Positions 4,505 through 63,793 of a stretch of DNA of 64,000 bases are shown here, in pieces. Origin of the DNA: Pseudomonadota bacterium (GTDB lineage Bacteria; Desulfobacterota; JAPLJL01); the NCBI GenBank assembly GCA_026388655.1, contig JAPLJI010000067.1, forward strand, positions 1 to 64,000, read 5' to 3'. Position 1 is the first letter of the stretch. Every line of letters starts with the position of its first letter. The translations under genes and the position numbers were made by a program. The notes under the pieces were generated by a model. It saw nothing but the letters and a program-made list of their open reading frames with translations, did no database searches and was not told where the DNA came from.

Positions 4505-4670
4505 CAATCTGGTCCTGTCCCGTTCCTAAATACCTGACCAGTGAGTGCAGGTTCGAGTGATATTGTTTGATTGGGTTTAAATTAGGGAAGGAAAAAGGCT
4601 TCGCTCAGTATCAGCCCTGAGCTTGTCGAAGGGCTGATAATCCGGGACTTCAAGCTCCAATCCGCGCGCA
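4505..4670. repeat. Dispersed repeat B, second copy
   Basis: GGTCCTGTCCCGTTCCTAAATACCTGACCAGTGAGTGCAGG ... GGGACTTCAAGCTCCAATC. Confidence 0.6.
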
Positions 4671-7145: not shown

Positions 7146-7402
7146 TGGGTTTCTTCCCTCTCCAGGCCGAGTCGCAGGCACCAATAATTAACGGTCCGGG
7201 GCGAAAGATATAAGCTTTGCTTTAAAACCTCGGTAATTTTATCCCGTTCATAGGTTTTGGAAAGAAGACCGATCTGCCGGTCTCCCCCATGCTCGAGAAG
7301 GCGCTCGACGATGACGAACCAATCCTCCTTTAGATCGAGCGCTTTCAAATCCGCGTCCCAAAGGCAAGGTTTCAGGATTTCCTCGATTTCCGCCGGTACC
7401 AT
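7103..7402 (-). CDS. Putative antitoxin partner of AbiEii-like toxin
   Basis: 99 aa ORF overlapping and upstream of the AbiEii-like CDS on the same strand. Confidence 0.6.
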   Translation of the reverse strand: MVPAEIEEILKPCLWDADLKALDLKEDWFVIVERLLEHGGDRQIGLLSKTYERDKITEVLKQSLYLSPRTVNYWCLRLGLEREETQCFTRSFPRLWPPS

Positions 7403-7480
7403 GAAGTTATTTTAACACAAATACCGACGAAAAAATAGCGAAAATGACCATGCTATTAGTACCATATTCCGCTTTTCCCA

Positions 7481-7525
7481 CCTGGTCCTGGCCCGTTCCT
7501 AAATGTCTGACCAGCGAGTACAGGG
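7481..7525. repeat. Dispersed repeat B, partial copy
   Basis: CCTGGTCCTGGCCCGTTCCTAAATGTCTGACCAGCGAGTACAGG. Confidence 0.6.
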
Positions 7526-7679
7526 GTCAATAAAACCGGTCCGGCCCGATCGCCAAAATCCAAATCTCAAAAATTCAAATCAAATTATTTTATTAATAGA
7601 TAAGGCGAGATTCTTCGCTTCCCTTGGCTACGCTCGGGATAAACCGCTCAGAATGACAAATTTAAGTAGGAATAATGGA

Positions 7680-7750
7680 GGCGGCACCCGGATTCGAACC
7701 GGGGAATGAAGGTTTTGCAGACCTTTGCCTTACCACTTGGCGATGCCGCC
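7680..7750 (-). tRNA. tRNA-Cys(GCA)
   Basis: Cloverleaf on minus strand GGCGGCATCGCCAAGTGGT...CTGCAAA...GGTTCGAATCCGGGTGCCGCC. Confidence 0.95.
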
Positions 7751-7758
7751 GTAATGGA

Positions 7759-7829
7759 GCGGGCAATGGGAATTGAACCCACGACCTCAACCTTGGCAAG
7801 GTTGCACTCTACCGCTGAGTTACGCCCGC
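7759..7829 (-). tRNA. tRNA-Gly(GCC)
   Basis: GCGGGCGTAACTCAGCGGTAGAGTGC AACCTTGCCAAGGTT ...GGTTCAATTCCCATTGCCCGC. Confidence 0.95.
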
Positions 7830-8004: not shown

Positions 8005-8027
8005 CGCAGGCTAAAGCCTGCGGCTAC
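8005..8027. repeat. Short dispersed palindrome CGCAGGCTAAAGCCTGCGGCTAC
   Basis: Similar copies at 57947-57969 and 62406-62428 (inverted). Confidence 0.8.
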
Positions 8028-8183: not shown

Positions 8184-8322
8184 CTGAGTTTTTAATGATG
8201 AAGTTACGAAGGCCCAATCCCTCCGCGGTCGGGATAAATCCCTCTGGAGTCGGGACAAGTAAATTGGGCAATTGGTATAAACGCTCAATGAATTGAGCAA
8301 CTACGAAATCAATTTGGTTTAT

Positions 8323-8350
8323 GTAGTTTGCCGATTTATCGGCCTTTTTT
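8323..8350 (+). terminator. Terminator-like hairpin directly upstream of cbiM (solo half of the MITE-like element)
   Basis: GTAGTTTGCCGATTTATCGGCCTTTTTT. Confidence 0.5.
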
Positions 8351-11019: not shown

Positions 11020-11090
11020 TCTCCCCCGGTTTCTTATCTGAATTAATGCCGTTGAATCATTTGTATTGTCTTTTTGGAAGGGATTTTTTT

Positions 11091-11208
11091 GTAGTATGCC
11101 GATTCACTTGTCCCGTCTCTGGGGGGATCGGCGGTTTTAAAATTGCCCGATCCCTCCCGTATCGGGATAAATCCCTCTGAAGTCGGGACAAGTAAATCGG
11201 GCAACTAC
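11091..11208 (-). repeat. MITE-like double-hairpin element, core copy
   Basis: GTAGTATGCCGATTCACTTGTCCCG...TTTTAAAA...GTCGGGACAAGTAAATCGGGCAACTAC. Confidence 0.85.
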
Positions 11209-11343
11209 GTAATATTTCCAAATACTGATAATATTTCTCGAATTTAATCTGGAAAACGCAAAAGTTCGGCAGGGTTTATTTAGTTGACGAAATCCATAAC
11301 TAACAACCATAATTAAACCGCCAGTGAGAACGGGATAATTCGC

Positions 11344-13847: not shown

Positions 13848-14247
13848 TCTTGCCCGTGGGTGGCGGGCTGAAATGGACGCTCCCCCTTCGACATAGCTCG
13901 GGAACTTCGGTCCTTCGACAATCCTAATAACGAAATGAGGCATTTTTTCTTTTTGGGGGGGTGGGTTTCGCTCCCCAAATAATGTGTGCGATCATAAAAT
14001 CCCGGGCGGCGGTCCCGCAGGGCCTCGCCTTCGTTGGATCAAATCGTAAATAATCATCGAGTTCATCTGTGTCTCGTCTATAAAAAATTTGGGTCGCGAG
14101 AACCCACCCCCCGGGGCTTCTGAAAAACATAAGAAACCGGAAGAACCAAATGAACTAAATGAACCAGATGAACGATTTGTTTTAACTGCGGTCCCTCCGG
14201 GCCGTAGGCCCTACGAGCCGGAGGCTGCGGTCGGTGGTCGGCGGTCG

Positions 14248-17290: not shown

Positions 17291-17382
17291 AGCCCCGGAC
17301 CCATCGCCGTCCGAAACATAAATTTTCCCCTCGCCTTCAAACGCTCCCCCGCGGGGAGAAGAGAGGGTGAGGGGTTTTAATT

Positions 17383-17595
17383 TAACCCGAAAAATGCAGT
17401 TGTTATTTCCTAATGTTTCGTAGTTGCCAGATTTACTTGTCCCGACTTCAGAGGGATTTATCCCGATACGGGAGGGATCGGGCGCTTTTGAAAACCGCCG
17501 ATCCCCCCAGAGACGGGACAAGTGAATCGGCAGACTACAAAAAAATCCTCCCGCGAATGACGGAGGAATGGATTCAATCGCATTTTTCGGGGTTA
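17383..17595 (+). repeat. MITE-like element, full copy with outer TIR
   Basis: TAACCCGAAAAATGC (17383-17397) ... core 17420-17538 ... GCATTTTTCGGGGTTA (17580-17595). Confidence 0.85.
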
Positions 17596-17646
17596 ATTCG
17601 ATCAAACCTGAACCCCGGTCCCATTATCTGGTAAAATAACAAAGCA

Positions 17647-23780: not shown

Positions 23781-24877
23781 TTTTTCTCTGAATTAAAAAT
23801 TAAACATCAGCGTTGGAAAATTCAAATTTTTTCTTTTTATTTGGTTTGGTTTGATTTTGCCTGTTTTTGGATTTTTTAACGTATTTTGGACCCAATTTGG
23901 ACACAGGATTTTTTATCCTCCAAGGTTATTTTATCGCAATTTTTAAAGTTAAGCGAGATTAAAGGAAGAGAGATGAAAGATTGTCCCGATTTTATTCTTT
24001 TTCCGACGAGACACCGATATGAAAAATATCTTGTCGTTTGAAATGAGAGGAAATTAAAAGAGCGAAAGCAAAACTCTCAGCTACGAGATAGAGGTTTTTA
24101 TCTGGGCTATTCTTTGATTATTATGGAAAGGAATTCTTTTTCTGCCCAGATCGCTGTTCGAATGCAGATGGGGTCAGCCCTTGACATTGGACTTTCTGGT
24201 CTATCTCATCTATTTAGTCTGTCTAGTCTGTTTGGTCTAAAAATGGCAGATGGCAGATAGCAGATAGCCAGCCCAGACTTAGCCGATGGCCGACGGCAGA
24301 CCGCAACAAAATACAGAGGTTCAGGGTTCAGTGACGAACGCCGAACGCCGACCACGGACCGCAGACCAGAGGCAAAACGCAGGAGGCAAAGCGTAGAAAT
24401 AACATCGCGGACCCCTCGCCCTGGCTCGGGGCAAGCGGCTGACCGCTGAGATAACAAACGCAGAAAAAAACCCAGGGTCAGGTCTTTACCTTGCTGTTTG
24501 CGATGATATTTCCAACTTTTTCCTCACCAAAAATCCCTTCCTCCGCTCAAAATTATCTGAAGAATTAAATACTTACAAAAATTCTTTTAAATCTTTGAAA
24601 ATATTTCCATCGAAATGACATTAATAGAGGGTGTTAGGGGTTTTGATTTAAACATTCGAAATTAGATGAAAAAACGAAAATATTTGATCTGGTCTAATCC
24701 GGTTGTTTTTTATAGAGTGCATTAGCTTGCTAATGCAATGCATCGGCGAGCCGATGCAGTCCAAAGAAGATAATTTATGAAAAACCCCTAACACCCTCTA
24801 ATAAAAAATCTAGTATGGGTAAATTTTCTAGGCTTTTTTGATTCGAGAAAGATGGTAAAATAACATCAGGGAGATTG

Positions 24878-32947: not shown

Positions 32948-33100
32948 TTGAGAATGTTTTATTAATACGATAGGTGAGGAGAATTCATCCTACCCCTTGA
33001 GGGGGGAGGATGAAGGAGAGGGCGAAAAGAGAGGTTTGTTGATCACCCTCCCCTCGTTCCCCTCCCATCAAGGGAGGGGAAATTTGTGGTAAAAGATTAT

Positions 33101-33314
33101 TAAACCCGAAAAATGCGAATAAATTCATTCGGACGTCTTTTGCCAGCGGATTTTAATGTAATATGCCGATTCACTTGTCCCGTAACTGGGCGGGGTTGGC
33201 GGATTTTAAAATCGTCCGATCCCTCCGTTGTCGGGATAAATCCCCCTGAAGTCGGGACAAGTAAATCGGGCAACTACAAGGCATTCGGAAAGATTAAAGC
33301 ATTTTTCGGATTAA
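33101..33314 (-). repeat. MITE-like element, full copy with outer TIR
   Basis: AACCCGAAAAATGC (33103-33116) ... core 33158-33277 ... GCATTTTTCGGATTA (33299-33313). Confidence 0.85.
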
Positions 33315-33326
33315 AATCCTCCTAGG

Positions 33327-34973: not shown

Positions 34974-35114
34974 TGATACTTCGACGGCGCCCAAACCATG
35001 CCCTTTATGGCGGGGTTTATCCTGAGGGGATTCACCCTGAAGGAAAAGAGGCGCCGCTCAGTGTCAACCCTTAGTATACCACGGGCTTTAGACCAGGGAA
35101 GTCGAAGGGTTGAT
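34974..35114. repeat. Dispersed repeat C (ends TGATACTTCGAC ... GTCGAAGGGTTGATT)
   Basis: Related copy at 51811-51923 with shared GGCGCC, AGAGGCGCCGCTCAGTRTCAACCCT and GTCGAAGGGTTGATT blocks. Confidence 0.75.
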
Positions 35115-35274
35115 TAACAGTTTTGCAACGATCTGGCGAAGAAAAAGCTAAGTCCTTCGATTCATAAGCTCGATAACGAACTTGTTTACTCAGGACTTAG
35201 TGCTGAGTGAGCATTATTATTAGTTCGGTTTTGAAAAAACACGTTACCGTAACTGCGAATCGAAGCACGAGGAA

Positions 35275-35884: not shown

Positions 35885-35963
35885 TTAAACCCGAAAAATA
35901 CCATTGAAAACATTCCATCGTATTTCGCGAGCATTGGGAAATCCTGACAGCATTTTTCGGGCG
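35885..35963. repeat. MITE-like element, internally deleted copy
   Basis: TTAAACCCGAAAAAT (35885-35899) ... GCATTTTTCGGGCG (35950-35963), no hairpin core. Confidence 0.7.
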
Positions 35964-51810: not shown

Positions 51811-51923
51811 TGATACTTCGACAGCGCCCAAACCCGGCCCTTTAGGGCGGGGAAAGAGGCGCCGCTCAGTATCAACCCTGAGCATACCCCGGGTTTTAGA
51901 CCGGGCAAGTCGAAGGGTTGATT
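51811..51923. repeat. Dispersed repeat C, second copy, just upstream of cooS
   Basis: See 34974-35114. Confidence 0.75.
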
Positions 51924-53894: not shown

Positions 53895-53916
53895 GTAGTT
53901 GCCCGATTTATCGGGC
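53895..53916. repeat. Solo-hairpin version of the MITE-like core
   Basis: GTAGTTGCCCGATTTATCGGGC. Confidence 0.65.
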
Positions 53917-57946: not shown

Positions 57947-57969
57947 CGCAGGCTGAAGCCTGCGGCTAC
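57947..57969. repeat. Short dispersed palindrome CGCAGGCTGAAGCCTGCGGCTAC
   Basis: Copy of 8005-8027. Confidence 0.75.
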
Positions 57970-57992
57970 CTCTTGGCGGTGAGATTTGAGGG

Positions 57993-62365: not shown

Positions 62366-62405
62366 AGGAGCAAAGCGCATAGCGTATAGGGCATAGCGTA
62401 AAAAA

Positions 62406-62428
62406 GTAGCCGCAGGCTTTAGCCTGCG
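62406..62428. repeat. Short dispersed palindrome GTAGCCGCAGGCTTTAGCCTGCG
   Basis: Inverted copy of 8005-8027. Confidence 0.75.
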
Positions 62429-63600: not shown

Positions 63601-63733
63601 TACCGAAAAATGAAATTGATTTTTTCTGTCTTCCTGTAGTTGCCCGATTTATTTATCCCGATTTCAGAGGGACTTGTCCCGAAGGATGAGGGATCGGGCT
63701 ATTTTAAAAACCGCCGATTAATCGGCATACTAC
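63601..63733 (+). repeat. MITE-like element copy, left outer repeat (ACCGAAAAATG) plus core 63636-63733
   Basis: GTAGTTGCCCGATTTATTTATCCCG...AGGGATCGGGC...GCCGATTAATCGGCATACTAC. Confidence 0.8.
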
Positions 63734-63751
63734 AAAGAAATCTCGCGCAGG

Positions 63752-63793
63752 AAAAAAGCCGCCCAGGCTTCAGGGGCCCAGGCGGCTTTTTTT
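63752..63793. terminator. Bidirectional rho-independent terminator
   Basis: AAAAAAGCCGCC...GGCGGCTTTTTTT. Confidence 0.85.

Follow-up and report, generated by a model that had tools for sequence, protein, structure and literature searches.

The 64-kb window analyzed here (positions 1 to 64,000 of JAPLJI010000067.1, our contig C189) belongs to a 3.56-Mb draft metagenome-assembled genome (MAG) of the Desulfobacterota, made up of 194 contigs (GCA_026388655.1). Between its genes lie several copies of a short element, probably a miniature inverted-repeat transposable element (MITE), with a 17-bp terminal inverted repeat (TIR; CCCGAAAAATGCRRTTG) at both ends and a core formed by a pair of repetitive extragenic palindromes (REPs). 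The first-pass annotation had described a TIR-bounded element of 213 bp at 17383-17595 with a two-hairpin core at 17420-17538. The bounded element and the core are as described; the unit itself spans 206 bp (17386-17591), the "AA" included in the noted TIR belongs to the target duplication (TTTAA/GTTAA), and the inverted repeat runs inwards to 17 bp. A second copy, reported at 33101-33314 with only its core inverted, is the whole element reversed and is flanked by an exact duplication. Two sites listed as copies of the core (11091-11208 and 63636-63733) do contain it; the first, however, is a complete element with recognizable arms and decayed TIRs, and the second a right-truncated element that keeps its left TIR at 63602 and immediately follows a triosephosphate isomerase gene. 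A 72-bp core-less copy (35890-35961) and free REPs (about 8211-8343 and at 53895) had not been recorded. Coordinates are collected in Table 1.

The element is present in dozens of copies in its own genome and in two genomes of the same genus (G001 and G002, the sister genomes below). Within its own genome, the 17-mer end is present at 63 positions when one mismatch is allowed, versus 0 occurrences of a reversed-pattern control, and a 13-mer of the REP (GTAGTTGCCCGAT, at most one mismatch) occurs at 187 sites, versus 0 for the control, so the element and its conserved ends are not a product of chance. A BLAST search of the same genome, in which the best 40 of 155 candidates were scored, gave at least 48 matches. 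Among 56 other genomes of the phylum, the search yielded only one borderline 30-bp match (E 9.6e-4) in a single genome. Assembly duplication is excluded as the source of the copies, which diverge by up to approximately 25% and have different flanks; broken and truncated copies are common.

The element is mobile, as is evident from its TIRs, its 5-bp target-site duplications (TSDs), and empty orthologous sites, and the first-pass proposal of a mobile, non-autonomous element is borne out. In the 36 copies of its own genome with both ends readable, an exact 5-bp duplication was found in 17, compared with 4.15 expected from re-pairing of the same flanks and a maximum of 11 in 2000 shuffles; the same copies gave no duplication signal at lengths of 2, 3, 4, 6, 7, or 8 bp. 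The duplicated 5-mers are A/T-rich (TTAAA, TTTAT, ATAAA, and TTTAA). The site of the copy at 17386 is unoccupied in both sister genomes, reading GGGTTTTAATTTAA|TTTG in G002 and GGGTTTTGCTTTAA|TCAG in G001, and its flanks, when aligned to the sisters, meet with a 4-base overlap. The copy at C190:14414 is flanked by ATAAA/ATAAA, and neither sister has the element at the corresponding site; at a third site (C190:20428) G002 likewise has no insertion, and G001 differs. These data also bear on the earlier suggestion of a structured RNA, which can be widened to any regulatory DNA element under selection. Changes in the hairpin stems preserve pairing and the copies are intergenic, as that explanation would have it, yet the only Rfam matches in the window are tRNAs, with none at the element, and each of the three tested sites lacks the element in one or both sister species and is thus not conserved between them. 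With TSDs present and damaged copies frequent, we regard a selected structure as very improbable.

The core has the organization of a REPIN, a REP doublet forming a hairpin (Bertels and Rainey 2011, PMC3116915), which the first-pass annotation did not recognize, nor its relation to REP-associated tyrosine transposases (RAYTs). Two inverted REPs (A and B) face each other across a short spacer with their GTAG heads outward, the halves reading inwards as GTAGTT-GCCCGAT..ATCGGGC and GTAGTCT-GCCGAT..ATCGGC. Many of the 187 sites of the REP 13-mer lack MITE ends. Stems vary with pairing kept (GCCCGAT, GCCTCAT, GCCCCAT, GCCCAAT, and GCTCAAT), and perfect hairpins of the simplest kind, lacking the tip modules described below, number 119 in the DNA fetched, versus 1 for four permuted heads combined.

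A gene for a RAYT of 149 amino acids (aa) lies on contig C148, bracketed by inverted REPs of the family found in the MITE core, the downstream REP overlapping the end of the gene. The predicted protein matches Pfam Y1_Tnp above the cut-off and the solved Escherichia coli TnpA_REP (4ER8); it scores 66.7 bits against NCBIfam REP_Tyr_transpos, below the curated cut-off of 80. It keeps the HUH motif (HLH) and a tyrosine aligned to the D-Y-I position of the E. coli enzyme, and the gene is apparently intact. Judging by the flanking position and the sequence of the REPs, this RAYT is probably cognate to the core REPs. The searched flanks of the six remaining Y1_Tnp loci contained no REP belonging to the family; relatives of the RAYT are present at 56 loci of named genomes. 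The C148 gene also lies between two repeats that appear to be the template and the variable copy of a diversity-generating retroelement (L247; L037 1192-1313 and 2009-2130). Template and variable repeat differ mainly at template adenines (19 of 20 differences), and the variable repeat forms the end of a protein with the FGE-sulfatase fold; no reverse transcriptase was found among the six neighboring open reading frames scanned.

The length of the element is quantized. Within an overall range of 143-227 bp, units fall at 143, 164, 185, 206, and 227 bp (143 + 21n); among 52 elements sized 130-235 bp, 35 have exactly such a length, 41 come within one base, and 45 or 46 within two. The steps arise from 21-bp modules (AYTTRTCCCGANNNNRGAGGG) added at the hairpin tips, of which hairpin A contains 0-3 and hairpin B 0-2. 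Since the REPs flanking the RAYT bear the same modules (two in one REP and one 22-bp module in the other), the modular build belongs to the REP family and not to the MITE. Junctions between modules form a palindrome (GGGAYTTRTCCC), a plausible seat of slipped replication.

Several findings indicate that the REPIN is a passenger. A 69-bp core-less element in G002 has the same ends and an exact TSD (TTAAA/TTAAA), and a 392-bp element on C185 combines the same ends with a different interior and a near-matching TSD (TTTAA/TTTAT). Together with the 72-bp derivative in the window, these suggest that the REPIN is dispensable for movement. Nineteen REP sites picked for the absence of a visible TIR comprise 8 A-B doublets and 11 single REPs or other arrangements; remnants of MITE arms were detected in 6 of the 8 doublets (one marginal) and were clear in only 1 of the 11 others. 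The A-B doublet has therefore spread mostly inside the MITE, and single REPs have spread otherwise. Two further kinds of insertion were seen in the element: some cores in G001 and G002 (L068, L073, and L182) are invaded at the REPIN center by a second REP doublet with GGAG/GGAC heads and TGCAATAGCTTGCTATTGC hairpins, and a MITE copy on C162 (L051 1304-1672) is split by an insertion of approximately 225 bp with ends GTGTCCCGAAAA.../...GGGACAC.

If the whole element were a pure REP/BIME (bacterial interspersed mosaic element) or REPIN family moved by the RAYT alone, its outer arms would be the conserved flanks of an extended REPIN. REPINs are indeed known as miniature mobile DNA (PMC3116915), and a RAYT is present with the same REPs on its flanks; nevertheless, the TSDs refute movement of the outer unit by the RAYT alone, elements without the core or with another interior have the same ends, and single REPs occur without arms. 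Such an origin appears improbable. Less easily set aside, though still unlikely, is the joint work of two engines, a DDE transposase acting on the double-stranded TIRs and the RAYT, an HUH enzyme, acting on single-stranded REP hairpins, whose excision or copying of the REPIN would leave core-less MITEs and seed free REPs, with hairpins growing by exact modules of 21 bp (two helical turns). The core-less copies at 35890 and in G002, the A-B doublets that stand free with no clear arms (L213, L224, and L040), and the apparently intact RAYT gene are consistent with this; the two core-less junctions, however, lie a few bases apart and not exactly at GTAG/CTAC, so that simple deletion explains the core-less copies equally well.

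We favor the reading of the element as a non-autonomous DDE-type MITE carrying a REPIN as passenger (probability about 0.86), supported by the TIRs, 5-bp TSDs, and empty sister sites. A transposase supplied in trans would bind the CCCGAAAAATGCRRTTG ends and move the 143-227-bp unit into A/T-rich sites (such as TTAAA, TTTAT, and ATAAA), duplicating 5 bp. As the A-B doublet occurs mainly with MITE arms, a single capture followed by amplification through the MITE route is its most likely history, and single REPs without arms would presumably have been dispersed by the RAYT. The tips of the hairpins gain or lose the palindrome-rich 21-bp modules, most likely through slipped replication, giving the 143 + 21n ladder and leaving the GTAG head and the base of the stem untouched.

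Among parallels with bacterial MITEs and insertion sequences (ISs) of the DDE type, the IS1634 signature fits best: members of this family have a terminal C and a 5-6-bp A/T-rich TSD (PMC2266710), and the MITE ends begin with C and are flanked by 5-bp A/T-rich duplications. To find the partner, 396 genomes of the phylum were scanned for TIR pairs. Outside the genus, the majority of exact TIR matches (G172 and G017 among them) are single, resemble chance or other palindromes, and were rejected. The best lead is a repeat that terminates in the same 17 bp, found at contig ends in G092 and also in G121, which belong to a different family within the phylum. Contig breaks or truncation interrupt its interior, and a transposase could not be read; the repeated end common to the two is absent from the plasmids searched. 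In G121 a remnant that encodes a C-terminus resembling that of an integron integrase (L240, approximately 7300-7812) lies just upstream of a stretch with this 17-bp TIR at its end.

Several points weigh against the interpretation as a MITE with a REPIN passenger. No autonomous element with the MITE ends was found in the assembly, a draft MAG of a kind that tends to lose multi-copy ISs. An IS1634-type transposase was not found, and this incomplete MAG has no intact DDE_Tnp_1 (PF01609), its one candidate being a broken remnant; DDE_Tnp_1_4 (PF13701), which we take to be the IS1380-type domain, has no match in the three genomes. Action of the RAYT on these REPs is inferred only from their position on either side of the gene. 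The unit seen to move is bounded by the TIRs; two A-B doublets (L213 and L224) lack clear arms, so the doublet may to some extent have moved on its own.

Table 1. MITE copies, their parts, and free REPs in the 64-kb window
Feature	Position	Strand	Remarks
MITE copy 1	17386..17591	+	206 bp, A-arm left; G001 and G002 both have the precise empty site
Left TSD of copy 1	17381..17385		TTTAA
Right TSD of copy 1	17592..17596		GTTAA, one mismatch versus left
Left TIR of copy 1	17386..17402	+	CCCGAAAAATGCAGTTG
Right TIR of copy 1	17575..17591	-	reads CCCGAAAAATGCGATTG on the - strand
REP A of copy 1	17420..17483	+	GTAG head and hairpin GCC(A/C)GAT...ATCGGGC; tip holds two 21-bp modules
REP B of copy 1	17497..17538	-	GTAG head (CTAC on +) and hairpin GCCGAT...ATCGGC; one 21-bp module
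MITE copy 2	33105..33310	-	206 bp, entire element inverted; TSD TTAAA (33100-33104) / TTAAA (33311-33315)
MITE copy 3	11045..11250	-	complete, ends decayed; REPIN core 11091-11208 intact
MITE copy 4	63602..63760	+	left TIR (2 mismatches), REPIN 63636-63733, right arm lost
Core-less MITE derivative	35890..35961		72 bp; retains both TIRs and part of each arm, without REPIN
Free single REP	53895..53916	+	GTAGTTGCCCGATTTATCGGGC; same site in G002 also has a REP
Cluster of free REPs	8211..8343		stems GCCCAAT.., GCTCAAT.., GCCGAT..

The window contains other repeats. An unrelated dispersed repeat of approximately 185 bp (13943-14130) occurs dozens of times in each sister genome. A MITE-like sequence at 24621-24804, with 24-bp inverted repeats (TTAATAGAGGGTGTTAGGGGTTTT) that are 96% complementary and 136 nt apart, is matched at many places in the sister genomes. 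A different GTAG-headed REP (GTAGCCGCAGGCTTTAGCCTGCG) occurs at 8005-8027, 57947-57974, and 62401-62428, and a repeat of approximately 74 bp (GGCGCCGCTCAGTATCAACCCTGAGC...) at 4590-4622, 35042-35115, and 51850-51923, two copies being 89% identical.

MITEs, REPINs, and RAYTs have all been described before; what is unusual is that one short element joins the landmarks of two transposition systems. The literature searched yielded no DDE MITE that encloses a REPIN and has hairpins quantized in 21-bp steps, although this does not prove absence. The spread of REPs is still poorly understood (PMC8266576), and REP doublets hitch-hiking in a conventional transposon would represent a second dispersal route, one that leaves a readable record in TSDs and empty sites. 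The length ladder presents the tip of the REP hairpin as a modular, growing structure, making the tolerance of the RAYT for tip length directly testable.

Like the REPINs described earlier (PMC3116915), the core has two inverted REPs separated by a short spacer, their GT(A/G)G heads pointing outward, is intergenic, and has a RAYT in the genome; unlike them, it sits inside an element with TIRs and TSDs, grows at its tips by 21 bp, and has its A-B doublet mainly within that element. The GTAG REPs and REPtrons (Di Nocera 2013, PMC3733652; for TnpA_REP biochemistry, PMC8266576) share the GTAG head, the near-perfect palindrome, and a RAYT bracketed by inverted REPs, and the zero-module loop TTTA is that of the Marinomonas REP; the present family differs in its uncultured lineage, its modular hairpins, and the absence of these REPs from most Y1_Tnp loci. 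With the MITEs of bacterial DDE ISs the element has in common short TIRs beginning with C, a 5-bp A/T-rich TSD, and no coding capacity, its REPIN interior setting it apart. BrickBuilt of Porphyromonas gingivalis is likewise a MITE enclosing a short tandem unit of approximately two helical turns; its 23-bp minisatellite is a plain tandem repeat (PMC4596501), whereas the 21-bp units described here occupy the tips of a pair of REP hairpins and are a REP feature found also at the RAYT locus.
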